A stretch of DNA of 44,498 nucleotides from Lachnospiraceae bacterium (GTDB taxonomy: Bacteria > Bacillota > Clostridia > Lachnospirales > Lachnospiraceae), in contig JAILLY010000049.1 of NCBI GenBank assembly GCA_024692905.1, positions 1 through 44,498 on the forward strand. The letters run 5' to 3'. Every line of letters begins with the position of its first letter. Positions within the stretch are counted from its first letter, which is position 1. A program made the translations under genes and the position numbers. This document shows positions 17,918 through 29,189 of this stretch, piece after piece. Below the pieces are notes generated by a model. The model did not search any database and was not told the DNA's origin. It saw only the letters and a program-made list of their open reading frames with translations.

Positions 17918-18463
17918 TTACCTCGGATAAGGCGCCTGGCCGTGATAGTAGGCGTTGTATGCTATAACGTTTGCAAGATCCACGGCATATGCGCCGTTTG
18001 TGGCGAGCACCGCGTTATATGCAGCCTGGTTGACGAGAGCAGAATTATATATCGCCTGATTGTTAAGGGCGGTCGCGTATATCGATTTGTCCGCATATAC
18101 CGCAGCATATATAGGCTCGTTTATGAGCGTCGCCGTATAGGTTGCGGGCACCGGAAATGCTGCCGACTGCTTCATCTGATAGGTTATGAGCGCATTGAGC
18201 TGGGTAAGCTTTACGGATGCAGCGTTGACTGCGGTCTGCGCATCCTGTATGGCTCCCGATGATGCACCGCTGTTTATGAGCGACTGGAGGTAATTATACT
18301 TGTTTGCAAAGTCAGCCTCCGCCTCGGGTACCTTATACATAGCCCTTAACATCTCTGCCTGGGCCCCGGCTTCAAGTACGTTATAGGCAGCCTTGACTTC
18401 CCTTGCGGGTGTAAACACGGTTGCCGCGCATAATGCGATAACGGCAAATATAAGCTTCTTCAT
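17918..18463 (-). CDS. Secreted protein with tyrosine decapeptide repeats, function unknown
   Basis: The 181-residue protein has a signal peptide (MKKLIFAVIALCAATVFTPA...VKA). A helical region (about 28-105) follows, rich in Ala, Gln and Leu. Seven consecutive 10-residue units (108-177) fit the pattern [ITA]-Y-x-x-x-[LYV]-x-x-x-x, for example IYATALNNQA and IYNSALVNQA, and the chain ends PYPR. There are no cysteines or charged clusters in the repeats. I do not recognise the family. It leads a three-gene minus-strand operon with the aldo/keto reductase and the CAP lipoprotein, which suggests an envelope role for at least two of the three. GGAGA upstream of ATG serves as ribosome site. Confidence 0.8.
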   Translation of the reverse strand: MKKLIFAVIALCAATVFTPAREVKAAYNVLEAGAQAEMLRAMYKVPEAEADFANKYNYLQSLINSGASSGAIQDAQTAVNAASVKLTQLNALITYQMKQSAAFPVPATYTATLINEPIYAAVYADKSIYATALNNQAIYNSALVNQAAYNAVLATNGAYAVDLANVIAYNAYYHGQAPYPR

Positions 18464-18549
18464 GACTGATTCTCCTTTTCATTATTTATACTTATATCCG
18501 TTCAAAGGGCGCAGTGACCCCGTTGACGTTTACATAATTTATCGGCACA

Positions 18550-18555
18550 ATTATA
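18550..18555 (-). promoter_or_regulatory. Possible -10 element for the minus-strand three-gene operon
   Basis: The minus strand reads TATAAT here, giving a leader of about 80 bases before the ATG at 18463. The -35 position at 17 bases (minus strand ATGATT) is weak. Confidence 0.4.
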
Positions 18556-18597
18556 CCATGAGTTTAGCGCAAAATCATTAAATTATGGAAAAAACCG

Positions 18598-18628
18598 TTA
18601 TCAATACACCTTATCCTGCCGATATAAT
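18598..18628 (+). promoter_or_regulatory. Probable promoter of the DUF6033-like gene
   Basis: A perfect TATAAT (18623-18628) is preceded by a weak TTATCA (18598-18603) at a 19-base spacing. The 251-base gap 18464-18714 thus holds divergent promoters and no further ORF. Confidence 0.5.
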
Positions 18629-18714
18629 TAATAAGCCTTAATATCCGGCTTGGTAACTAATCACAGCCATGGTAGGAAAAGGATTTCTTATCAGGATTCA
18701 AAGGAGGAATGACT

Positions 18715-19554
18715 ATGGCGATCAACACATCAGCAGTACAGGAAATTGCTGCCGCCTATCAGACCGGTCCGACATCGGAAGTATCCGCGAAGAAAAACGA
18801 ATATGGCAGGACCATAGGTGAGCCCAAACTGTCCGAAGAGGGCAAAAAGTATTATGAGGGGCTCAAGAAGAAATTTCACGGGTATGACTTTATCCTTGTC
18901 AGCAAGGACCAGATCGCGAACGCAAAGGCACAGGCGGCAAGGTATGCCAATCCGAACAAACCCGTCGTACTGATCGACGAGGAGAAGATCGAGAAGATGG
19001 CAACCGACAGGGAATACCGCGAGAAATACGAATCTGTTATCGCGGGTGCTTCATCGCAGCTGTCAAAGATGAAGGACAAACTGATGGCTTCGGGAGCCGA
19101 CTTCAAGGGCTTCGGTATGCAGGTCAATGACGGAGGTACGGCAAGCTTCTTCGCGGTCGTGAAGAAATCCCAGGATGCACAGGCGGCGCGCATAAAAGAG
19201 AAGCGTGCAGAATCAAAAGCCGCCAACAAGGCAGCACAAAAGAAGCTTAAAGCCAAACAGGCCGAAAAGAAACGGGCCGAAAAGCAGAAGGCCGAAAAAC
19301 TGAAAGAAAAAGCAAAGGACGATGAGGTTAAGGGAGATGTCCGTGAAATGACCCGCGAAGAGATCGATGAACTTCCGCCCGACATTCAGGAAGGACTTGG
19401 CAGGATCTGGGAGGAGAACACGGTCACGATCTCCGCATCGAGTGTTGATGAACTCATCGTAAAGCTCGGTGACTATGTCCAGGATGAGAGGATGAACTCC
19501 ATACGGACTCCGCAGGAGGAAATGATAGGAGGTCATATAGATTTCAAAGGCTGA
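18715..19554 (+). CDS. DUF6033-like charged helical protein
   Basis: The 279-residue protein has no signal peptide. Residues about 20-160 form a globular part (YGRTIGEPKLSEEGKKYYEG, YDFILVSKDQI, NKPVVLIDEEKIEKMA) that I associate from memory with the Lachnospiraceae family DUF6033. Residues about 160-205 are an Ala/Lys/Glu-rich helix. The C-terminus has a regular acidic helix and ends IDFKG. The start is placed at 18715 because AAGGAGG (18701-18707) is 7 bases away; the in-frame ATG at 18709 is only one base from that site. The gene stands alone between promoters, and its function is unknown. Confidence 0.75.
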   Translation: MAINTSAVQEIAAAYQTGPTSEVSAKKNEYGRTIGEPKLSEEGKKYYEGLKKKFHGYDFILVSKDQIANAKAQAARYANPNKPVVLIDEEKIEKMATDREYREKYESVIAGASSQLSKMKDKLMASGADFKGFGMQVNDGGTASFFAVVKKSQDAQAARIKEKRAESKAANKAAQKKLKAKQAEKKRAEKQKAEKLKEKAKDDEVKGDVREMTREEIDELPPDIQEGLGRIWEENTVTISASSVDELIVKLGDYVQDERMNSIRTPQEEMIGGHIDFKG

Positions 19555-19577
19555 TATGTAACTCCGTCGGATCAGTA

Positions 19578-19605
19578 TTGACTAATGATGATTATGTGGT
19601 AAAAT
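19578..19605 (+). promoter_or_regulatory. Promoter of the adaptor-ABC exporter operon
   Basis: TTGACT (19578-19583), a 16-base spacer and TAAAAT (19600-19605). Confidence 0.7.
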
Positions 19606-19613
19606 CATATAAG

Positions 19614-19627
19614 TTAGCAATGGCTAA
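19614..19627. promoter_or_regulatory. Inverted repeat at the exporter transcription start, possible operator
   Basis: TTAGC-aatg-GCTAA begins 9 bases after the -10 element, at the expected transcription start, as a TetR- or MarR-type repressor site would be. No regulator gene is adjacent. A 5-bp arm can arise by chance. Confidence 0.35.
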
Positions 19628-19645
19628 TCATGAACGGAGGTCATT

Positions 19646-21133
19646 ATGAAAGGCGTAAAATTAATCATGGGTGCGGGCGTCGTGGCAGTGCTCGGCGGCA
19701 CCGGACTCCTTATGACGGCCTTCCTCGGTAAGGCAGCAGGTTACGAAACGGGGACAGCCGGATACGGAAACATATCACAGAGTGTGGAAGCAACGGGAGA
19801 TGTACATGGCGAGAGGAGTATGACTTATTACTCGCAGGTTACGGCTCCCGTTTCTTATTATGACTTGTCATCAGGTGACGAAGTAAAGAGCGGTGACAAA
19901 GTGGTCGGTTACGATCTTGACGACCTGATGAAAATCTATGAACAGGCCGAACTTACCGCCAAGTCCGCCGAGAATACGATGAACGGACAGGTTAAGGCAA
20001 GCGACAGCAATCAGGCGAAATATAACAAGGCAGCTTCGGATATCGAAGTATACAGGAATGCCTACGCCCTGTTCCGTATGGCAAATGACTATGTCAATCA
20101 GGGACAGTATCAGGAAAGCTGGGATGTCGGATGCATCGCTGACGGCATAAACAAGGATATCGCGGAAAAGAGCGGTCAGGTAAACGCACTCCAGGCAGAA
20201 CTTACGAAGCAGCAGATAAGGCTCAGCGAGCCGGACGTGATCGCAGACGCGGAGGAGTTCAAACGTACCGAGAAGGAAGTCAACAGGCTGGCGGATGAGA
20301 TAGCGGGACTCAGCCGCGACATAGGAAACCTCCAGTCGGATCTTGCGGGACTTCCGCCGACGAACCTTTCGCCCGAAGAATATGCGATGACTGTCATTAA
20401 CGGGAACTGGATGTCCGACATCATGCGCAACTGGACCGAGGCGTCCACTCTTAAGAACACATATGAGAATCAGATACTCAATTCCTACCAGAAGGAACAG
20501 CTTAAAAACTCCTACGATCTGTCGGCGTTAAGCGTTGAGACGGCTTCGGAGAACCTGACAAAGGCAACTGCGGGCGTGAGCATCGAATTTGACGGTGTCA
20601 TCACCGAAAGCATGATAGAGAGCGGGACGGTGGTCACGAAGGGAACGCCGTTATTCACCGTTGAGAGCAGTAAGGACATGAAGGTCGATGTCGGCATATC
20701 CAAGTACGATATCGGCAAGATCGCCGTCGGCCAGAAGGCAGAGATAACCATAGCCGGAAACATATATCCGGGAACCGTTTCACAGATCAAGCGCATAGCC
20801 GAAAAGGGAAGCTCTGATAAGGCCAAAGTCACCGTGTCCGTCAAGTTTGACGAGCCGGATGAGAGAGTGTATATCGGCCTTGAAGCGGACGTTAAGATAT
20901 TTACCGACGAAAGGCAGGGAGCGCTGACTATCCCCGCGGAAGCTTATTATGCGGATGACGGCGGCGACTACTGCTACATAATAAAGGACGGCGTCATTGC
21001 CAAGCAGTATATCACGACCGGGGTTGAATCCGATGACCTTATCGAGGTCACGATGGGACTCAAAGAGGGTGATGTTGTCATCACCGATGCGATAACGGAT
21101 GAAAAGATAGGGACGGCAGCAGAGAGTAAATAG
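19646..21133 (+). CDS. HlyD/MacA-like membrane-fusion (adaptor) protein of an ABC exporter
   Basis: The 495-residue protein has an N-terminal membrane anchor (about 7-30). A lipoyl/barrel-sandwich half follows (about 55-90: YYSQVTAPVSYYDLSSGDEVKSGDKV). A long helical hairpin with coiled-coil character spans about 95-305. The second lipoyl half (about 308-345: ISIEFDGVITESMIESGTVV) and a beta-barrel domain (ITIAGNIYPGTVSQIKRIAEKG) complete the adaptor fold. In Gram-positive bacteria such adaptors work with ABC exporters without an outer-membrane channel, moving peptides, lipids or drugs. The substrate is unknown. Ribosome site GGAGG; the ABC ATPase begins 22 bases downstream. Confidence 0.88.
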   Translation: MKGVKLIMGAGVVAVLGGTGLLMTAFLGKAAGYETGTAGYGNISQSVEATGDVHGERSMTYYSQVTAPVSYYDLSSGDEVKSGDKVVGYDLDDLMKIYEQAELTAKSAENTMNGQVKASDSNQAKYNKAASDIEVYRNAYALFRMANDYVNQGQYQESWDVGCIADGINKDIAEKSGQVNALQAELTKQQIRLSEPDVIADAEEFKRTEKEVNRLADEIAGLSRDIGNLQSDLAGLPPTNLSPEEYAMTVINGNWMSDIMRNWTEASTLKNTYENQILNSYQKEQLKNSYDLSALSVETASENLTKATAGVSIEFDGVITESMIESGTVVTKGTPLFTVESSKDMKVDVGISKYDIGKIAVGQKAEITIAGNIYPGTVSQIKRIAEKGSSDKAKVTVSVKFDEPDERVYIGLEADVKIFTDERQGALTIPAEAYYADDGGDYCYIIKDGVIAKQYITTGVESDDLIEVTMGLKEGDVVITDAITDEKIGTAAESK

Positions 21134-21155
21134 ATATTTAAGGAACGACGGCTTG

Positions 21156-21950
21156 ATGAGCAGGAAAAAAGACAGGCTCCCCAAGGTGGAGATAATAGAT
21201 ATAGAAAACGATGCTTCCCTTGATAAGGAAGAAGAAAAAGGCACGCCTTCCGTCCTTATCGAGTTTAAGGAAGTGAGCAAGAAATACGTCCAGGGTGACA
21301 ATGTGTTCTACGCCTTAAAGGATGCAAGCTTTTCCATAAACGAGGGTGAGATGGTGGTCATACTCGGCCCGTCGGGAGCGGGCAAGAGTACACTGCTTAA
21401 CCTCCTCGGAGGAATGGACAGCGCATCGGGCGGACATATATGGTTTGACGGTAAGGACCTTACCACATTCAATGACAACCAGCTTACGTCATACCGTGCG
21501 CAGAACGTGGGTGTCGTGTTCCAGTTCTATAACCTTATCCCGACGCTTACGGCATATGAAAACGTTGCACTGATGAAGGATATTAAGGACGGTACGACCG
21601 ATCCGAAGGAGGCGCTTGCCGCGGTGGGTCTTGCTGAGCATATGCACCAGTTCCCGTCGCAGTTATCGGGCGGTGAACAGCAGCGTACTTCGATCGCAAG
21701 AGCCATAGCCAAGAATCCGAGGCTCCTGCTCTGCGACGAACCTACCGGTGCGCTCGATACGGGCACGGGGCAGGAAGTTCTTAAGCTGCTCCAGGATATG
21801 AGCCGCGAAAAGAAACGCACGGTCGTCATGGTAACGCATAACAGCCTGTTCGCGGATATAGCCGACACGGTTATAAGGGTCCGCAACGGCGGGATAGAAA
21901 GCGTCGTGCATAACGATAACCCGAAAGATGCAAGTGAGGTAAAATGGTGA
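21156..21950 (+). CDS. ABC transporter ATPase (MacB/LolD type)
   Basis: The 264-residue nucleotide-binding protein has Walker A GPSGAGKST, a Q-loop (VVFQFYNLIPTLTAYENV), signature LSGGEQQR, Walker B LLLCDEP and the H-loop MVTHN. Sequence around these motifs (ALKDASFSINEGEMVVILGPSG) is that of MacB/LolD/FtsE exporters. About 30 charged residues precede the ATPase domain, an unusual extension. ATG 21156 is 11 bases from AAGGA; TTG 21153 is also possible. It sits between the adaptor and permease and should power them. Confidence 0.92.
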   Translation: MSRKKDRLPKVEIIDIENDASLDKEEEKGTPSVLIEFKEVSKKYVQGDNVFYALKDASFSINEGEMVVILGPSGAGKSTLLNLLGGMDSASGGHIWFDGKDLTTFNDNQLTSYRAQNVGVVFQFYNLIPTLTAYENVALMKDIKDGTTDPKEALAAVGLAEHMHQFPSQLSGGEQQRTSIARAIAKNPRLLLCDEPTGALDTGTGQEVLKLLQDMSREKKRTVVMVTHNSLFADIADTVIRVRNGGIESVVHNDNPKDASEVKW

Positions 21951-21956
21951 TCTGAG

Positions 21957-24266
21957 ATGCTTTTTCGAAAAATGTGGCGCGATCTGTTCAAGAACAAGAC
22001 GCAGTTCATTTCCATCTTCCTTATGTCGATGCTCGGCATGGTCATCTTCGTCGGAATAGATGCGGAGAGTGCCGGCGGAGCATACGCGGCGGAAAAATAT
22101 TATAAAGAGTACAATCTATCGGACATATGGATCCAGGGTGCGGGCTTTTCGGACGACGATGTGAGGACGGCCAAAAAAGTCACCGGCGTCAAGGGTGTCG
22201 AGAAACGGCTGGCACTGACCGGTACCGCGGACGTAAAGGCCGGCGGCGACGATGCCTATATGTACATAAACTTCATAAATGAAGGAGACATCAACAGACT
22301 CATGCTCCATGAAGGTGAACCCTACAGGGAGGATGAGCAGGGAGTATGGCTCGAAGAGTGGTTCGCACGTACCAATGATATACACGTTGGCGATAACTTC
22401 ACCGCAGAGTTAAACGGCATAAAGGTAGATGCCGTGGTGAAGGGTATCGTGGATGCTCCGGATTATGTTTATTTCGTTTCGGAAGCGGATATGATGTATC
22501 CGAATTATACCAAATGCGGTCTTGCCTTCATGTCTTCATGCATGTATCCCGACAGTTCGAACATGATCTATAACCAGCTCATCATTGATGTACGCGATGA
22601 TATGAGCGACGATGAGACCATAGACACGATAAAGGGTAAGCTTGAAAAGGTCTTTGACAGGGATGATATCGCCGTCACCGACAGAGACCAGAATCTGAGC
22701 TATGCGACATTTGATGCCGAGGTCAGGCAGCATCAGGCAATGGGCCTTCTGTTCGCAGTTATCTTCCTTGCCATAGCGCTGCTTGGGATAGTCACCACAA
22801 TGGCCAGGGTTACGGCGAGCCAGAGGACCGTGATCGGTACGATGAAGGCGCTCGGATTCTCTAAGTCACGGATCACTTTCCACTATGTTTCATACGGGCT
22901 TTTAATAAGTGCCGCCGGATCTGTCCTCGGAGCATGGGTCGGTTTCCTCACCATGCCGCCGTGGATCCTCGGAATGTTCACAGGAAGCTATCTTATCCCG
23001 GATCTTTACGGAAGGATAACAAAGCTTGATATCATCGCGATCGCGACGGCGATAGTCGTGTCCGGTATCGTAAGCTTCCTTTCATGTCGTAAGGAATTAA
23101 AGGACCCGCCGGCAGTGACTCTTAAGCCGCCCGCACCCAAAAAGATAAGGCATTCGGCCCTGGAAAAGAGCCGCCTGTGGCTTATGCTTGACTTTTCCAC
23201 CCAGTGGAACATAAGGGATGTGTTCAGGAACAAGTTAAGGAGCCTTATGGGCATACTCGGAGTCGTCGGATGTTCGATGCTCCTTGTATGCGGGTTCGGC
23301 TGCTTCGATTCCGTGAACGGCCTTGTCGATAAGATGTACGGTGAACTGATGACCGCCGGGAACAAGATCGTATTAAGCCGGGATGCGGATTACGGCTATG
23401 CCTATGACCTTGCCGTCAGATACAAGGGACAGATGGTACAGGAGATGAGCGTTGAGTTTGTTTCGGACACGGCCAAGAAGAGCGGATCCGCGACCATAGT
23501 GGATAAGGGCAATTACGTACATATCCAGGATAAGGACTTAAAGCCTGTAAAGCTTGATAAGAGCGGCATGGCCATGACCCAGAAGATGGCAGGGCTTCTC
23601 GGGCTTAAAAAGGGTGACTTTGTCAAATGGCATATCGTCGGGGACGATAAGTGGCAGTATATGAGGATAACGCAGATATACCGCGATCCTTCCGTTCAGG
23701 GCATAACGATGGCACGTAAGGTATATGAGGATCTTGAGTATGACTTTAAGCCTACGTCCATACTCACGAACAAAAGCGTGCCTTCCGGTCTTACCGATGA
23801 GGACGGGGTATCGTCTGTACTCAATATAGAGAGCATGAAGGCGGCATTTTCCGAGACCATGGAGATAATGAATTCCATGGTATATGTCATGGTGTTCGGT
23901 GCGGTACTGCTCGGAGTCGTCGTACTGTATAATCTCGGAGTACTCTCGTTCGTCGAAAAAACCCGTGAGGTCGCGACTCTCAAGGTGCTGGGCTTTAGGT
24001 CCGGGAAGATCAGGAACATCCTTCAGAAACAGAATATCTGGCTTACGGCCATCGGCATAATCTTCGGTCTTCAGGGAGGCTGGGGGCTTATGTATGTCAT
24101 ATGTACGACGGTGTCCGATACGCTTGATATGTTCCCTATCATCAAACCGCTCACATATCTGTTTTCGGTCGGCGGGACCTTCCTTGTTTCGGTACTCGTA
24201 AACTTCATGTTCTCGGGCAAGGTTAAGACGATCGACATGGTCGACGCCCTTAAAGGTGTCGAATAG
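21957..24266 (+). CDS. Two-module FtsX-like ABC permease
   Basis: The 769-residue membrane protein has about eight transmembrane helices. One lies near the N-terminus (about 17-36), followed by an extracellular domain of about 220 residues. A first FtsX-like set of three helices (about 262-284, 308-332, 352-372) follows. Then a helix (about 425-445), a second extracellular domain of about 190 residues and a second set of three (about 640-665, 690-712, 725-747) complete the protein. Motifs such as GTMKALGFSKSRI and VATLKVLGFRSGKI precede the middle helix of each set. This duplicated topology differs from classical four-helix MacB and resembles LolC/E-like or large lipid/peptide exporters. The ATG lies 6 bases after the ATPase stop, so translation is coupled. 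Confidence 0.9.
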   Translation: MLFRKMWRDLFKNKTQFISIFLMSMLGMVIFVGIDAESAGGAYAAEKYYKEYNLSDIWIQGAGFSDDDVRTAKKVTGVKGVEKRLALTGTADVKAGGDDAYMYINFINEGDINRLMLHEGEPYREDEQGVWLEEWFARTNDIHVGDNFTAELNGIKVDAVVKGIVDAPDYVYFVSEADMMYPNYTKCGLAFMSSCMYPDSSNMIYNQLIIDVRDDMSDDETIDTIKGKLEKVFDRDDIAVTDRDQNLSYATFDAEVRQHQAMGLLFAVIFLAIALLGIVTTMARVTASQRTVIGTMKALGFSKSRITFHYVSYGLLISAAGSVLGAWVGFLTMPPWILGMFTGSYLIPDLYGRITKLDIIAIATAIVVSGIVSFLSCRKELKDPPAVTLKPPAPKKIRHSALEKSRLWLMLDFSTQWNIRDVFRNKLRSLMGILGVVGCSMLLVCGFGCFDSVNGLVDKMYGELMTAGNKIVLSRDADYGYAYDLAVRYKGQMVQEMSVEFVSDTAKKSGSATIVDKGNYVHIQDKDLKPVKLDKSGMAMTQKMAGLLGLKKGDFVKWHIVGDDKWQYMRITQIYRDPSVQGITMARKVYEDLEYDFKPTSILTNKSVPSGLTDEDGVSSVLNIESMKAAFSETMEIMNSMVYVMVFGAVLLGVVVLYNLGVLSFVEKTREVATLKVLGFRSGKIRNILQKQNIWLTAIGIIFGLQGGWGLMYVICTTVSDTLDMFPIIKPLTYLFSVGGTFLVSVLVNFMFSGKVKTIDMVDALKGVE

Positions 24267-24312
24267 AACAGAGCAGACATCTGTTGTCATGACGGCCCCG
24301 GAATGGTATATT
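24267..24312 (+). promoter_or_regulatory. Promoter with overlapping inverted repeat before the stator-like pair
   Basis: TTGTCA (24284-24289), a 17-base spacer and TATATT (24307-24312) form a promoter. The inverted repeat AACAGA (24267-24272), 7 bases, TCTGTT (24280-24285) overlaps the first two bases of the -35 and could be an operator or the tail of an upstream terminator. Confidence 0.6.
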
Positions 24313-24350
24313 CATTGTATATGGATTCCATGTAAAGGAGATTCGGGACT

Positions 24351-25937
24351 ATGAGAAGAAGGCCGTATGAACTGTGGTTGCTCATAACATATATCGCATT
24401 GCTTGCAGTCTGCATATATCTTAATCTTTTTTCGGCGGGACAGGCAGGGGGACTTGCCAACCTGATCGTCAATATCGTCATGTTCGTGATCGTTGCGCTC
24501 ATCCTGTTTGACTGTTACTTCGGAAGTTTTCTCCCGACGGCAGGGGTCATAAAGGATCTAAGGCGCGTGAACGCAAAGATCGAGGACGATGCCAAGCATA
24601 CTCATGATTTTCTCTGGGAAAGATATAAGGAGGATAATGACGGACTCTTTAAAGTGCCTGTTTTAAGGGAGCAGTTTAAGGACTACAGGTATGAACAGGA
24701 GAGGATCCTCAATTCGGACAAGGCGTACTATAAGTGCGACATGGAAGATTATGTAAACTACGATCTCGTTGATTCGCTCATCCACCGCAACCGCATGAAC
24801 CAGGTTGCCGGCGTGATGACGGGACTGGGTATACTCGGTACCTTCATAGGTCTTTCGCTCGGACTTCAGAGCTTTAATACCGGATCGACCGCCGAGATCA
24901 CGGACAGCATAGAGCCGCTTATGGCCGGCATCAAGGTTGCTTTCCATACATCGATATACGGCATGGTCTTTTCGCTTGTCTTTAACTATGTCTACAAGAG
25001 GATACTCGATGATGCGGAACAGTCAGTCCGTGCGTTCCTTGCCACCTTCAAGAAATATGTGCTTCCCGATACTTCGGCAGACGGCATCAACCGTCTCATC
25101 GAACTTGAGAAGCAGCAGACCGGGACTATCAAGGAAATGGCCGATAAGGCTTCGTATCTTATGTCCGACGGGTTAAAGTCGATCCTTGAGCCGCAGTTTG
25201 ACAGGTTCAACGATACCATCACCGGATTTGCGAACATGGCTACCAAGAATCAGATGGACCAGCTTGCCATGGTCGTGAACGCTTTCATATCCGAGATGAA
25301 CGCATCGCTTTCCGATATGTTCACCAAGCTGTCCGGGACGGTTGACTCTATCCTTGCGATGCAGGGCGAGAATGAGAAGCAGATGAACAGGATCCTTGAA
25401 AGGAACGTTAATACTGCAGATAATATAAGTCTTATATCCGAGAGGACCGGCGAGATGTCAGACGCCCTTAAGATGTATGCCGACAAGCTGCAGGACCTTC
25501 AGGGCAGGATGAGCGCGACCGCGGAGCTTTTAAAGCAGCAGAGAGAGGAAGACCACAGGGTGCGAAGCAATATCGCCGATTATATATTCAAGCTTGAGGA
25601 TTACAGGAAGACGCTTGATTCTTCGATCAACATGGCCGATCTTAATATAAAGACGCAGACAAAGATGATGGGCGAGATCAAGGATGCCGCGCAGCGTGTT
25701 CCGGCGGAAGTCAGGGGCACGTTTGATGTGATAAACGGAAACTTCATGATGGTCGAGGAACACTTTAAGGAGATCATCGGGCAGATACAGCAGGTACTTG
25801 CGCAGATGAGCGATCAGATCGAGTATTCCTATAACGGAATCGAGCAGAGTTTTGTGAGGACTGCCAAGGCCATCGAGGAACTGGCGGGCTTCATGCAGAG
25901 GCTTGAAGAATATTACACGGGCGGTTTGCAGATATGA
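24351..25937 (+). CDS. MotA/TolQ/ExbB-family ion-channel protein with long tail (ZorA-like)
   Basis: The 528-residue protein has two N-terminal helices (about 7-27, 36-57) and a cytoplasmic segment of about 95 residues. Two helices then carry the MotA/ExbB core, GLGILGTFIGLSLGL (about 157-171) and GIKVAFHTSIYGMVFSLVFN (about 193-212). A cytoplasmic tail of about 310 residues is rich in heptad-like helices, far longer than in MotA or ExbB. This layout matches ZorA of the Zorya anti-phage systems. With its partner it should form a 5:2 peptidoglycan-anchored rotary stator driven by proton or sodium flow. The stop overlaps the partner's start (ATGA at 25934). AAGGAG lies 10 bases before the ATG, and the gene has its own promoter. 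Confidence 0.85.
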   Translation: MRRRPYELWLLITYIALLAVCIYLNLFSAGQAGGLANLIVNIVMFVIVALILFDCYFGSFLPTAGVIKDLRRVNAKIEDDAKHTHDFLWERYKEDNDGLFKVPVLREQFKDYRYEQERILNSDKAYYKCDMEDYVNYDLVDSLIHRNRMNQVAGVMTGLGILGTFIGLSLGLQSFNTGSTAEITDSIEPLMAGIKVAFHTSIYGMVFSLVFNYVYKRILDDAEQSVRAFLATFKKYVLPDTSADGINRLIELEKQQTGTIKEMADKASYLMSDGLKSILEPQFDRFNDTITGFANMATKNQMDQLAMVVNAFISEMNASLSDMFTKLSGTVDSILAMQGENEKQMNRILERNVNTADNISLISERTGEMSDALKMYADKLQDLQGRMSATAELLKQQREEDHRVRSNIADYIFKLEDYRKTLDSSINMADLNIKTQTKMMGEIKDAAQRVPAEVRGTFDVINGNFMMVEEHFKEIIGQIQQVLAQMSDQIEYSYNGIEQSFVRTAKAIEELAGFMQRLEEYYTGGLQI

Positions 25938-26830
25938 GACGTTTAAGACGTTTGGATGAGGAAACCACATACTGGCTGTCTTATTCGGATATGATGGCGG
26001 GGCTGCTCTTAACCTTTGTGCTCATCATCTCGTTTACCATGCTCCATTCCAAGATAAGGTTTGATGAAAAGGAAGCGGAACTGATGGTAAGGTCGGATGA
26101 GCTTGAGGAAGAGCGTGCGACGGTTCACGAGCAGAAGACAATACTCGATGAACAGGCCAAAATGCTGAATGCCCAGGAGGAGGCACTTTCCGAGCAGGGT
26201 GAGAAGATAGCCATCCAGGAAAAGACCCTGAGGGAACAGCATGAGCTGCTCAACAAGCTCGAGGCCCTTATGAGCGAACAGCAGCAGAAGCTGGATAATA
26301 TCATCGGTGTAAGGACGGAGCTCATCGAGGAACTGAAGAATGAGTTCGGGAGTTCGGATCTTAAGGTCGCGGTGGATGAGAAGACCGGAGCGATCACCTT
26401 CGATGCGAACATCCTGTTTGATTATAACAAGGCGACCCTTACGAAGTCCGGAAAGGAATTCTTATCCGAATTCCTGCCAAGGTACGTGGATGTGCTCCTA
26501 AGCCCCAAATACAGGGATTATATCTCCGAGATCCTCATAGAAGGACATACCGATACGGAGGGCAATTACCTGTTCAATATGGAGCTTTCGCAGAAAAGGG
26601 CTCTTTCGGTAGCCGAGTACTGCCTTGGGGATAACAGCAAGATACTCTCGGACAAACAGCTTGAAGACTTAAGGAGCGTTATATCTGCCACGGGCCGTTC
26701 CTACAGCAATCCGGTCTATGACGAGAACGGTGAGGTCGACATGGAAGCGTCAAGACGTGTTGAATTCCTCTTCAGGCTCAAGGATGAGGAAATGATACGC
26801 GAAATGATAGAAATACTCAGTGCGGATTGA
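25934..26830 (+). CDS. OmpA/MotB-family peptidoglycan-binding stator partner (ZorB-like)
   Basis: The 298-residue protein has one N-terminal helix (about 18-37) carrying Asp19 in SYSDMMAGLLLTF, the ion-binding aspartate position of MotB/ZorB. A coiled coil (about 40-125) rich in Glu, Gln and Leu follows. The C-terminal OmpA domain (about 150-290) has LFDYNKATL, IEGHTDTEGNYLFNMELSQKRA and SRRVEFLFRL. It anchors the channel complex to the wall. The length is close to ZorB (about 240) plus the coiled coil. It overlaps the MotA-like gene by 4 bases, so the two are co-translated. Confidence 0.88.
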   Translation: MRRLRRLDEETTYWLSYSDMMAGLLLTFVLIISFTMLHSKIRFDEKEAELMVRSDELEEERATVHEQKTILDEQAKMLNAQEEALSEQGEKIAIQEKTLREQHELLNKLEALMSEQQQKLDNIIGVRTELIEELKNEFGSSDLKVAVDEKTGAITFDANILFDYNKATLTKSGKEFLSEFLPRYVDVLLSPKYRDYISEILIEGHTDTEGNYLFNMELSQKRALSVAEYCLGDNSKILSDKQLEDLRSVISATGRSYSNPVYDENGEVDMEASRRVEFLFRLKDEEMIREMIEILSAD

Positions 26831-26855
26831 CCGCCGGAGGGAAAAAAGTTATACT
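26827..26855 (+). promoter_or_regulatory. Promoter overlapping the end of the stator gene, close to the next ATG
   Basis: TTGACC (26827-26832), a 17-base spacer and TATACT (26850-26855). The predicted start is about 26862, the ATG itself, so the transcript may be leaderless. A GGAGGG (26836-26841) would serve only read-through transcripts and is 20 bases from the ATG. Confidence 0.6.
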
Positions 26856-26861
26856 TTGCTT

Positions 26862-28235
26862 ATGAGAAAGAAAGTCATTGGTATCGCCCTTGCGTTTTCT
26901 CTCGTGGTCACGGGCCTGCATTTCAGCCCGCGTGCCGATGAGATAGACGTGATCGAGGACGATATGATCTACGAAGAACAGGATATTGAAGCCGAAGAGG
27001 AAACAAGCCTCGAAGAGGAAACAAGCCTCGAAGAGGAAACAAGCCTTGAGACGGATATGGATCTTGAATCGGAAGAGGATATAGTGATCCGTCCCGACGA
27101 CGATCTGCTTGATTATACGGCGGATGAGGAGGATGCGCTCGTTGATATCGACGTGGAAGAGGAGGAAGACATCTTCGACATAGTCCCCGACGAGCCCGAG
27201 AATGTCGTTGACAGTGCGGAAGATGACTATTATGAGATCGAAGAGGAATACGTTTACGATGACCGCCCGTTTGATGCATCCTACATCACCGGCAAGGGTG
27301 TCGAGCGTATCAGGAAGGTCATAGTAGCTTACGCAGAGTCACTCGGCGGCACCTTCATAAGCCCCTACTACAAGGGCGGCAAGGCCGTTAGCATACAGTG
27401 CTGCGCATATGTCAATCAGGTATGGAAGCATGTCTTCGGAAAGGATATCTACGATCCCGGCGTAATGACCACCACGAGCCACGAGGGAGAGACCATATAT
27501 AATTTCCTTGAAAGGACAGGCGCCAGGGCCGGAGATATACTTTATGTCCGTTACTGGAAGGTTAAGAAGAACGACTGGTCTACGCATTTCATGATCCTTC
27601 TTGATTATGACGAGACCGGTGTATATGTTACCGACGGATATGAGACCGATGACGGCAGGTTCGTTGTATGGCGTATCGACAAGAAGGCCATTTACGATCA
27701 GTCCAATTTCTTTAAGAAGACCGGAAGTGACCGTGACAAGCCCGGACATAAGCACTGGTCCGGCAAGGACGGAAGCTTCTTCAAGCTTTACCGCATGAGG
27801 CAGGAGGAATGGTGCAACGTGGCGAATTCGACCTACGAGGCATATGCCACGGATCCCATGGTCTGTTCAACGATAACAAGGACGAATCTGTTTGAAGGCA
27901 CCTATACGATCAAGGCAGTGGTCTATTCAAGCAACGGCCTTAACAGGGTCCAGTTCCCCGTATGGACCGCAGCGGACGGGCAGGATGATCTGTGCCCGAA
28001 TTATGAAACGGATGATCTTGTCACGGGCGAGATAGAGGATATCGGTGACGATCACTACTCAGTGACTCATACGGTCAATATTGCCGACCATAACTATGAA
28101 ATGGGCAACTATATGGGTGAAATGTATATGTACGACAAAGAAGGTGTGCTGATGACCTATACCCTTGATGCCGTAAATATGGACGGAGCCTCCGGGGGCA
28201 TACTTATAGACCACATGCCCTGGATGCTGGAGTAG
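26862..28235 (+). CDS. Secreted papain-fold (NlpC/P60-like) protein with acidic N-terminus and GBS_Bsp-like domain
   Basis: The 457-residue protein begins with a signal peptide (MRKKVIGIALAFSLVVTGLHF). An Asp/Glu-dominated segment (about 26-135) follows, including a threefold EEETSL repeat. A papain-like domain (about 140-310) has candidate nucleophile Cys180 in SIQCCAYVNQVW, GDILYVRYW and His242 in STHFMILLDYDETGVYVTDG; the normal NlpC 'DCSGFV' reads QCCAYV. The C-terminus (about 345-445) has INxVxFPVWT-like features: VYSSNGLNRVQFPVWTA, GQDDL and DHNYEMGNYMGEMYMYD, as in GBS_Bsp-like domains that accompany wall hydrolases. It probably cuts or binds peptidoglycan. The ATG is set from the signal peptide; TTG 26856 is an alternative. 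Confidence 0.75.
   Translation: MRKKVIGIALAFSLVVTGLHFSPRADEIDVIEDDMIYEEQDIEAEEETSLEEETSLEEETSLETDMDLESEEDIVIRPDDDLLDYTADEEDALVDIDVEEEEDIFDIVPDEPENVVDSAEDDYYEIEEEYVYDDRPFDASYITGKGVERIRKVIVAYAESLGGTFISPYYKGGKAVSIQCCAYVNQVWKHVFGKDIYDPGVMTTTSHEGETIYNFLERTGARAGDILYVRYWKVKKNDWSTHFMILLDYDETGVYVTDGYETDDGRFVVWRIDKKAIYDQSNFFKKTGSDRDKPGHKHWSGKDGSFFKLYRMRQEEWCNVANSTYEAYATDPMVCSTITRTNLFEGTYTIKAVVYSSNGLNRVQFPVWTAADGQDDLCPNYETDDLVTGEIEDIGDDHYSVTHTVNIADHNYEMGNYMGEMYMYDKEGVLMTYTLDAVNMDGASGGILIDHMPWMLE
26994..27047 (+). repeat. Three tandem 18-bp units in the acidic segment
   Basis: gaagaggaaacaagcctc occurs at 26994, 27012 and 27030; the third differs only in its last base. Each encodes EEETSL in frame. Confidence 0.9.
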
Positions 28236-28239
28236 CCGG

Positions 28240-28620
28240 ATGGAAGAGCGCGCACTTAAGTTTGCCGAAGCATTATGTGAATATAGCAATAAAGACAGGG
28301 AATTCCTTGAAGCCTTTAAGCGCAGGCTCGAAGCCTCGCCGGCTTTATATAAGGAATTCCTGTATTTTATTGACAACGGGGATTTTCTCTGCGAGATGAA
28401 CGTGCAGGGCATAACACTGCCGGACATCCTTGTATGGCAGGTTGACAAGTTCAAATCGGGGATCGACGAGGGAAGGTTTGAGCTTAAATATAACCCGGAT
28501 GCCATGCTTTTAATGGCATTTAACACGATGTATGACGTTGAAAAGGACCCCTCGGTATACCTTGAAAATTTCCGGAGCGTGACCGGCAGCGATTACGAGG
28601 ATAAGATCAAGGGATACTGA
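28240..28620 (+). CDS. Small helical protein of unknown function
   Basis: The 126-residue protein is soluble and probably all-helical (ALKFAEALCEYSNKDREFLE, AFKRRLEASPALYKEFLYF). It has one aromatic core stretch (LPDILVWQVDKF) and no signal, metal or nucleotide motif. I do not recognise a family. GGAG (28228-28231) inside the upstream gene and a 4-base gap show translational coupling to the papain-fold protein. It is the last gene before the Mrp promoter and could be a cytosolic partner of the envelope cluster, but nothing in the sequence proves this. Confidence 0.75.
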   Translation: MEERALKFAEALCEYSNKDREFLEAFKRRLEASPALYKEFLYFIDNGDFLCEMNVQGITLPDILVWQVDKFKSGIDEGRFELKYNPDAMLLMAFNTMYDVEKDPSVYLENFRSVTGSDYEDKIKGY

Positions 28621-28653
28621 GCCGAATATACACCATATATTGCCGCGTACATA

Positions 28654-28682
28654 TTGCATACCACCATATTTTGTGCTAACAT
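28654..28682 (+). promoter_or_regulatory. Promoter of the Mrp operon
   Basis: TTGCAT (28654-28659), 17 bases, TAACAT (28677-28682). The -10 is embedded in GCTAA-ca-TTAGC (28675-28686), a short inverted repeat that may be an operator. Confidence 0.55.
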
Positions 28683-28712
28683 TAGCATGTATTTATCGTC
28701 AAGGGTGTGGGC

Positions 28713-29189
28713 ATGTACGCGGCATTATTTATTCTATGGATAATCTTTAACGGAAGGTTTACGCCGGAGGTGGCCGTGATTGGCCTCATAGTATCGGCGT
28801 TGATCTTCCTATTTATTTGCAGGTTTATGGGTTACAGCATCAGGAAGGAAAAGATGCTGTATATTCTTGTGCCCTGGATGCTCAAGTATTTCATCATTTT
28901 GATAACCGAGATAGTGAAGGCCAACTTTGCGACCTCGGCACTTATACTGAATCCCAAGATAGAAGTCGAACCCGGGATAGTGACTTTCAAGCCTGACTTT
29001 CACTACGGTTTTTTTAAGGCCATACTCGCCAATTCCATCACGCTTACGCCGGGAACGGTAACGATAAATGTCGAAGACGGCGTATATACCGTACACTGTC
29101 TCGATCCCGACCTGGCGACGGATATAGGGAATTCCGTTTTCCTTCGTGAGATCATGAAGGCGCAGGAGAGGCTTGATAAGGTAAGATAA
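28713..29189 (+). CDS. mrpE: Mrp antiporter subunit E
   Basis: This 158-residue MnhE/MrpE (MbhA) protein has three to four helices (YAALFILWIIFNGRFTPEV, IGLIVSALIFLFI, VPWMLKYFIILITEIVKANF). The family motif NSITLTPGTVTINVEDGVYTV appears near residues 109-129, and an acidic cytoplasmic end follows. ATG 28713 is 7 bases from AAGGG; the GTG at 28707 is too close. It is needed for assembly of the antiporter complex. Confidence 0.93.
   Translation: MYAALFILWIIFNGRFTPEVAVIGLIVSALIFLFICRFMGYSIRKEKMLYILVPWMLKYFIILITEIVKANFATSALILNPKIEVEPGIVTFKPDFHYGFFKAILANSITLTPGTVTINVEDGVYTVHCLDPDLATDIGNSVFLREIMKAQERLDKVR

Follow-up and report, generated by a model that had tools for sequence, protein, structure and literature searches.

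A stand-alone ZorAB-kind gene pair in a Lachnospiraceae bacterium and other Clostridia

Introduction

The closest described relatives of the gene pair reported here are the motor subunits of Zorya anti-phage systems. Structures of ZorAB have a 5:2 composition, and wall binding, the tail and ion flow are all needed, according to the sections of Mariano et al. consulted here (PMC11890865). In the proposal made there, rotation is unlocked when the wall is disturbed, and nucleases are recruited by the rod (PMC11890865). Here we describe two adjacent genes, A and B, on contig JAILLY010000049.1 of a Lachnospiraceae bacterium (GCA_024692905.1); the whole stretch of 44,498 nucleotides is called the window. 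Profiles, PDB matches, a fold search and trees assign the pair to the ZorAB branch among 5:2 motors and separate it from MotAB, TolQR and ExbBD. In the reading that we favor, with a probability of roughly 0.55, A and B form a self-contained, ion-driven and wall-engaged 5:2 motor of the ZorAB kind, which has no Zorya effector genes and serves the envelope of some Clostridia.

Results

The pair and its parts are located in the window as follows (aa, amino acids; TM, transmembrane helix).

24351–25937, + strand: A, ZorA-like motor subunit, 528 aa (Pfam, PADLOC and PDB matches, tree)
24786–25061, + strand: residues 146–237 of A, two-helix channel core TM3/TM4 with TGLGILGTF and KVAFHTS (sequence and predicted model)
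25062–25934, + strand: residues 238–528 of A, predicted all-helical cytoplasmic tail (model, of low confidence beyond about residue 240)
25934–26830, + strand: B, ZorB-like subunit, 298 aa, its start overlapping the end of A by 4 nucleotides (Pfam, PADLOC and PDB matches, tree)
25961–26053, + strand: residues 10–40 of B, membrane helix with the ion-carrying Asp19 (motif WxSxSD[ML]M)
26054–26317, + strand: residues 41–128 of B, linker rich in Q and E that looks like a coiled coil; Zorya ZorB has no linker of this length (sequence)
26321–26788, + strand: residues 130–285 of B, OmpA-type peptidoglycan-binding domain (Pfam and motif)

Pfam recognized a MotA_ExbB core in A (33.5 bits against a cut-off of 22.9) and the OmpA domain in B (53.1 bits). 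The original prediction had described a MotA/ExbB-like protein of 528 residues with a channel core and a tail of about 310 residues, and a partner with a MotB-type Asp19 and an OmpA domain; the open reading frames, coordinates, lengths, strand and Pfam matches agree with this description, and the tail of A is long and predicted to be helical. The channel motif AF.TS was present in all 84 A proteins checked, and the tail length of these relatives ranged from approximately 68 to 384 aa. In 16 of the 84, [GS]LF occurs within the last 15 residues of the tail in a lineage-specific manner (L035, L038, L041, L165, L168, L174, L175 and others), and this sequence near the tip may be a docking motif.

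The top PADLOC models were ZorA for A (E-values down to 2.9e-25) and ZorB for B (down to 3.5e-76), a similarity that greatly exceeds what chance would give. When the members of our alignments (13 A rows and 17 B rows) were checked against PADLOC, all of them matched ZorA or ZorB models. The ZorB model PDLC00609 scored 253.7 bits with B, 188.5 with E. coli ZorB2, 120.6 with E. coli ZorB1 and 79.6 with the genome's own flagellar MotB. Thus, a match to PDLC00609 (ZorB1) alone does not denote Zorya I, because MotB and E. coli ZorB2 match this model as well. The genome's own flagellar MotA matched no PADLOC family at 1e-5.

The closest solved structures in a PDB sequence search were ZorA and ZorB chains. 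Foldseek with the AlphaFold2 model of A, which was built from 13 sequences and had a mean predicted local distance difference test score (pLDDT) of 63, returned six matches with E ≤ 0.001. All six were ZorA chains (2e-8 to 2e-5), with large root-mean-square deviations, and ExbB followed at 2.5e-3. In the 44-row tree built from A cores, the clostridial family and Zorya were split from Mot, Tol and Exb proteins (support 99/98), and the clostridial rows joined type I (99/99); type I is possibly nested within the clostridial rows, at weak forks (81/29 and 83/82). In the B tree (43 rows), the clostridial rows formed one side of a branch supported at 87/94, which is under the strict mark of the program, and long Mot branches were flagged. 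E. coli Pal and Paracoccus rows were excluded from both trees, and gut Zorya I, which is incomplete, has no A row. The pair did not fall inside a non-Zorya stator clade. The claim that it follows the plan of ZorA/ZorB and not that of flagellar MotAB or ExbBD is supported: its closest profiles, structures and tree neighbors are ZorA and ZorB.

To collect relatives, species genomes were searched with the B alignment and the best 80 of 440 relatives were kept; these 80 came from Lachnospiraceae, Butyrivibrio, Oribacterium, Blautia, Oscillospiraceae and other Clostridia. The neighborhood set started from 122 loci, 118 of which contained B and 93 of which were non-redundant at 97% identity; L046–L049, which matched the OmpA domain only, were excluded. 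Genes in fetched loci are longest-open-reading-frame calls, and some are misplaced. Among the 93 non-redundant B relatives, the Asp motif WxSxSD[ML]M was found in 91 and the wall motif TD..G.Y..N..LS..R in 92. The spacing between the two motifs was 178–261 residues in 85 of the 90 relatives measured and 129–136 in the other five; the corresponding values are 111–117 for 11 Zorya-type proteins and 165 for the genome's own MotB. The linker of B is about 60–150 residues longer than that of Zorya ZorB, and this length may be an adaptation to the thick monoderm wall. A search of the class Clostridia (G342, G485, G529, G559 and others) also uncovered, in many families, a protein of 310–330 aa that matches the whole B model at 110–130 bits, possibly a second B-like family.

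A directly adjoined B in 89 of the 93 loci (83 called directly, and four full-length and two contig-cut A genes recovered using tblastn). In the remaining four, L090 has 366 nucleotides and a called antisense reading frame between the two genes, L151 and L164 begin at B, and L156 retains only a 63-residue piece of A. The commonest family within five genes of B was an NhaC-type antiporter (PF03553; 11 of 93 loci), which stands on either side of the pair in different lineages of the genus. The other recurring neighbors were single-lineage families, of which Pfam named FBPase_2, Na_H_antiporter, Mrr_cat and Epimerase; others we take to be pheS, pheT, rplS and the like. These neighborhoods show a pair that stands alone, with an obligatory association of A with B and no common third gene. 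In six divergent loci (L176:9041–9535, L184, L187, L191, L193 and L194), B is followed by a membrane-anchored protein of 163–165 aa that belongs to no Pfam family.

When 125 loci were searched with eight ZorC, ZorD and ZorE queries, the sole matches came from the Mrr-like C-terminal part of one ZorD query, and they fell in 17 loci belonging to a single subclade. In line with the original prediction, no ZorC, ZorE or whole ZorD was found near the pair. One subclade of the genus (L097:5639–12609 and about a dozen loci) has a fixed order of Mrr_cat membrane protein, regulator-like gene, NhaC antiporter, A, B and epimerase. The Mrr_cat protein of this subclade is membrane-tethered, is encoded three genes before A and is similar to the Mrr-like end of one ZorD. 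Across the 37 genomes of the window's genus, the ZorC model matched none, in a search that had no working positive control and did not extend to genome-wide ZorD or to ZorF/ZorG. The ZorE model matched three, through the HNH part only (66–91 positions, 30–37 bits) and in one case with stops. ZorF (DUF3348) and ZorG (DUF2894), at which no query was aimed, did not turn up in A, B or the two genes downstream of them.

None of 72,556 plasmid records matched A. A phage origin was rejected: a single-sequence scan of viral contigs was empty, and an alignment scan gave 11 relatives, of which three were examined, two of them full-length at 41% identity (L278 and L279). These two IMG/VR contigs carry the same element, on which the pair lies among serine-recombinase-like, HicAB-like and restriction-like genes.

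L278:4848–6912 and L279:1655–3719: short-tailed A (383 aa) and B (open reading frames on IMG/VR contigs)

The B of this element is 41% identical to that of the window and 65–73% identical to those of L036, L040 and L042. Five queries from the element (three recombinase-like, one HicB-like and one restriction-like) matched none of the 93 other flanks, and a fixed defence-island setting was not seen across the 93 loci. Another of the 11 viral-contig relatives, L280, is Zorya I as read from its open reading frames, with at least A, B and C. Two records of a phage collection matched; one reads as a flagellar operon and the other as Zorya I. L113, a record of that collection with open ends, is Zorya I-like, and all four gene types are readable in it.

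In the window's genus, A was found in 30 of the 37 genomes and in 12 of the 17 good ones. RecA rows were obtained for 30 of the 37. Over 22 genomes, RecA distances correlated with those of A (r 0.82) and B (r 0.88), and 0 of 2000 permutations reached these values. Of the seven genomes lacking A, five clustered on a single RecA-tree branch (support 85/73). G332, which is 82% complete, lay elsewhere, and G309 was not placed because no RecA was found in it. In what is presumably the genus of Blautia schinkii (genome G263), B was found in 57 of 64 genomes and in 32 of 34 good ones. Retention at the level of the genus was shown, together with a descent that parallels that of RecA. Of the suggested alternative of a housekeeping stator for wall remodelling, the housekeeping part is favored by these results.

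FlhA was detected in all 37 genomes of the window's genus, including the five placed genomes without A, and the window genome encodes its own MotA/MotB beside flagellar genes (L051:8859–10462). We also searched for FlhA in 21 genomes, seven of which had been picked on B alone and 14 of which had a verified pair. FlhA was absent in 14 of the 21, and in 10 of the 14 verified carriers (G263, G019, G105, G152, G280, G048, G121, G069, G142 and G204). Because these 10 carriers lack FlhA, the pair is not a flagellar stator, a candidate also ruled out by tree placement.

Two genes follow B head to tail. The first encodes a secreted-looking protein of 471 aa from GTG 26820 or 457 aa from ATG 26862, and the second a protein of 126 aa. 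ATG 26862 is the likelier start, because relatives align only from residue 13–15 (69 in one) of the GTG frame. A papain fold had been claimed for the first protein; Pfam matched only a GBS_Bsp-like repeat at its C-terminal end, and its structure model had a mean pLDDT of 41.5, which does not bear out the claim. Cys180, Cys181 and His242 (numbered from ATG 26862) are invariant in eight aligned relatives, which is compatible with a papain fold and no proof of it.

Full-length relatives of the 471-aa protein were found in nine other genomes of the genus (66–75% identity), in addition to four short matches, and they lay on a different contig from A wherever the A of that genome was found. In all nine fetched stretches, the order was 471-aa gene, 126-aa gene and Mrp operon, with no match to A or B; the two genes (26862–28620 in the window) are a conserved unit preceding this operon. 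Among the clustered loci, the five-gene neighborhood of B contained no relative of the 471-aa protein, and one other locus had a member of the 126-aa family beside A–B. Relatives of the 126-aa protein were present in 33 of the 37 genus genomes, often with a second, more distant copy.

In L232, L233 and L235, a homolog of window gene 17918–18463 lies about 170–220 nucleotides from the 471-aa gene, and A–B of these genomes are on other contigs. In the window, 8.4 kb lies between the same two genes and holds DUF6033, HlyD-type, ABC ATPase and FtsX-type genes as well as A–B. Since the genomes with short spacing have A–B elsewhere, A–B is a later neighbor of the downstream genes, and its junction with them in the window is recent.

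Positions 18464–26861 of the window amount to about 8.2 kb of extra sequence relative to L232, L233 and L235, which have none between these two genes. L234, L236, L237 and L238 carry different sequence of about 4–8 kb there, making this a variable site before the Mrp operon.

A dedicated promoter had been proposed in front of the pair, where the following site is found.

24284–24312, + strand: promoter-like site TTGTCA-17-TATATT upstream of A, 10 of 12 matches (no enrichment over shuffles in the region)

Positions 24200–28720 contain six promoter-like sites against 5.8 expected from shuffles, and the promoter claim therefore carries no weight. An Rfam scan of the window gave no match at gathering scores.

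Discussion

Because the motor stands by itself and at least two gut-bacterial genera retain it in most of their members, an everyday job in the cell envelope is probable. Since it is retained genus-wide and the defence partners are missing, its output would concern the envelope. We think that such an ordinary role is likelier than phage defence. For the mechanism, we applied to the pair what the model in the sections of PMC11890865 cited above says of the motor, leaving its effectors aside; five A around two B, ion flow, rotation and a role at the wall are inferred by this analogy. Five A would surround two B, and the OmpA domain of B, on a long linker suited to the thick monoderm wall, would grip peptidoglycan. 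Engagement with the wall, or a change in it, would unlock the flow past Asp19 of ions, either Na+ or H+. The ring of A subunits would then turn around the wall-tethered B, and its helical rod would turn or rearrange in the cytoplasm, where it may recruit or act on a client whose gene lies elsewhere. In this way, the state of the wall would be signalled to the cell inside or acted upon from there.

Several results weigh against a standing envelope motor of the ZorAB kind. The curated Zorya cut-offs of NCBIfam were missed by far: its ZorA models scored 37–76 bits with A against cut-offs of 100–750, and ZorB1 and ZorB2 scored 85.6 and 72.1 bits with B against a cut-off of 400. No beta-strand was called in the weak model of A described above, and a beta-sheet in the cytoplasmic part is typical of Zorya A subunits, according to the passages of PMC12505986 consulted. 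Five of the 17 good genomes of the window's genus lack A, and the pair is therefore non-essential there. Its distribution among genera is patchy: 15 of 299 family genomes had a strong B match, and the matches in the other 30 matching genomes were either confined to OmpA or weak and MotB-like. In the class sample, B was matched at 1e-30 in 27 of 393, only four exceeding 300 bits. Further, the pair has no constant genomic position, even in closely related genomes. Finally, L278 and L279 present a defence-like setting, and at least one branch of the family therefore travels, since its pair sits on a mobile-looking element.

Some of this evidence also speaks for anti-phage defence of the Zorya kind, the effector being either the product of a distant gene in the same genome or a nuclease of the host. 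The nearest relatives are Zorya ZorA and ZorB, the pair is patchy among genera, one copy is accompanied by HicAB-like and restriction-like genes on its mobile-looking element, and one subclade has the Mrr_cat protein upstream of A. However, retention within genera and RecA-like descent differ from the patchy spread typical of anti-phage systems (PMC11890865, sections as above), and ZorAB alone is insufficient for defence according to the part of PMC8565338 consulted. With ZorC in none of the 37 genus genomes (by the uncontrolled search), ZorE only as weak HNH matches in three, and A on none of the plasmids searched, we regard defence as unlikely.

More doubtful still is a motor driven by sodium and coupled to Na+/H+ antiport, with neighboring genes providing its ion gradient. 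The Mrp operon lies downstream in the window, and NhaC-type antiporters flank the pair in 11 loci. Further, Thr200 of A, within the invariant AF.TS, is the same in Na+-bound Shewanella ZorA and is Gly in E. coli ZorA (8QYD). However, the Mrp operon adjoins the pair in the window only, through insertion, 82 of the 93 loci have no NhaC-type family nearby, and Thr is present in type II ZorA proteins as well.

A second, auxiliary flagellar stator would suit a flagellated genome with its own MotA/MotB beside flagellar genes, but is very improbable: most verified carriers lack FlhA, the tree places A with ZorA and apart from MotA, a long tail replaces the flagellar cytoplasmic domain, and the five placed absentees retain FlhA. 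A four-gene unit, proposed originally as wall remodelling or a new Zorya subtype with the secreted and 126-residue proteins as partners, draws on the head-to-tail genes of the window, where A–B and the third gene almost touch, but can be set aside, because A–B is a later neighbor: synteny places the third and fourth genes of nine of nine relatives before the Mrp operon without A–B (three of them with the gene of the other side close by), the two genes are not conserved beside homologs of the pair, and G332, at 82% completeness, has both with no A found.

The stand-alone envelope motor invites a wider and tentative proposal, to which we give less than even odds. ZorAB-type motors may not have been a defence invention at root: the clostridial ZorAB, standing alone, tethered to the wall and extended in reach, may be a genus-core envelope machine and a third branch in addition to Zorya I and II. 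Zorya itself may have arisen when such a motor was recruited to nucleases, or the reverse may have happened. Under this proposal, non-flagellated monoderm gut bacteria would possess a rotary motor with no known output. If the favored reading is true, a phage-defence motor is also a standing machine in common gut bacteria, including the genus of Blautia schinkii and relatives. The pair would also offer a testable setting for what a ZorAB motor does without nuclease partners, and for whether defence borrowed it.

Comparison with known systems

In the openly available literature that we consulted, a stand-alone clostridial ZorAB was described nowhere that we found; Hu et al. 2025 (Nature) may mention it. 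The consulted part of PMC8565338 likewise reports no separate group of this kind. By the same part of that source, the '_other' classes of PADLOC accept any two co-located Zorya genes, and a two-gene pair would satisfy this relaxed rule. Annotation using ZorA and ZorB models will label such pairs 'Zorya' where the genome has no Zorya effector.

ExbBD and TolQR share a distant core kinship with the pair (Foldseek 2.5e-3 and weaker). However, they have no long tail, they are separate in the tree, and their B partners are without an OmpA domain, as stated in the consulted passages of PMC12505986. Flagellar MotAB, represented by the genome's own copy, has a 5:2-type core, the Asp of B and an OmpA domain in common with the pair, but occupies a separate tree branch and has no long tail, and the genome's MotA matches no ZorA model. 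Zorya type II (8VVI; E. coli plasmid locus L108) consists of the same two subunits, and ZorB2 is the second-best PADLOC model of B (143 bits). In contrast to the clostridial A, the type II protein is missing the early cytoplasmic region covered by our alignment, and no ZorE stands beside the clostridial pair.

Zorya type I (8VVN, 8QYD) shares with the pair two early helices, a TM3/TM4 core with TGLGI.GTF, a long helical tail, a MotB-type Asp and an OmpA domain, and the A core groups with it at 99/99. Unlike type I, the clostridial pair has no ZorC or ZorD found beside it and scores below the curated cut-offs, and it is distinguished by a longer B linker and by being kept vertically on the chromosome.

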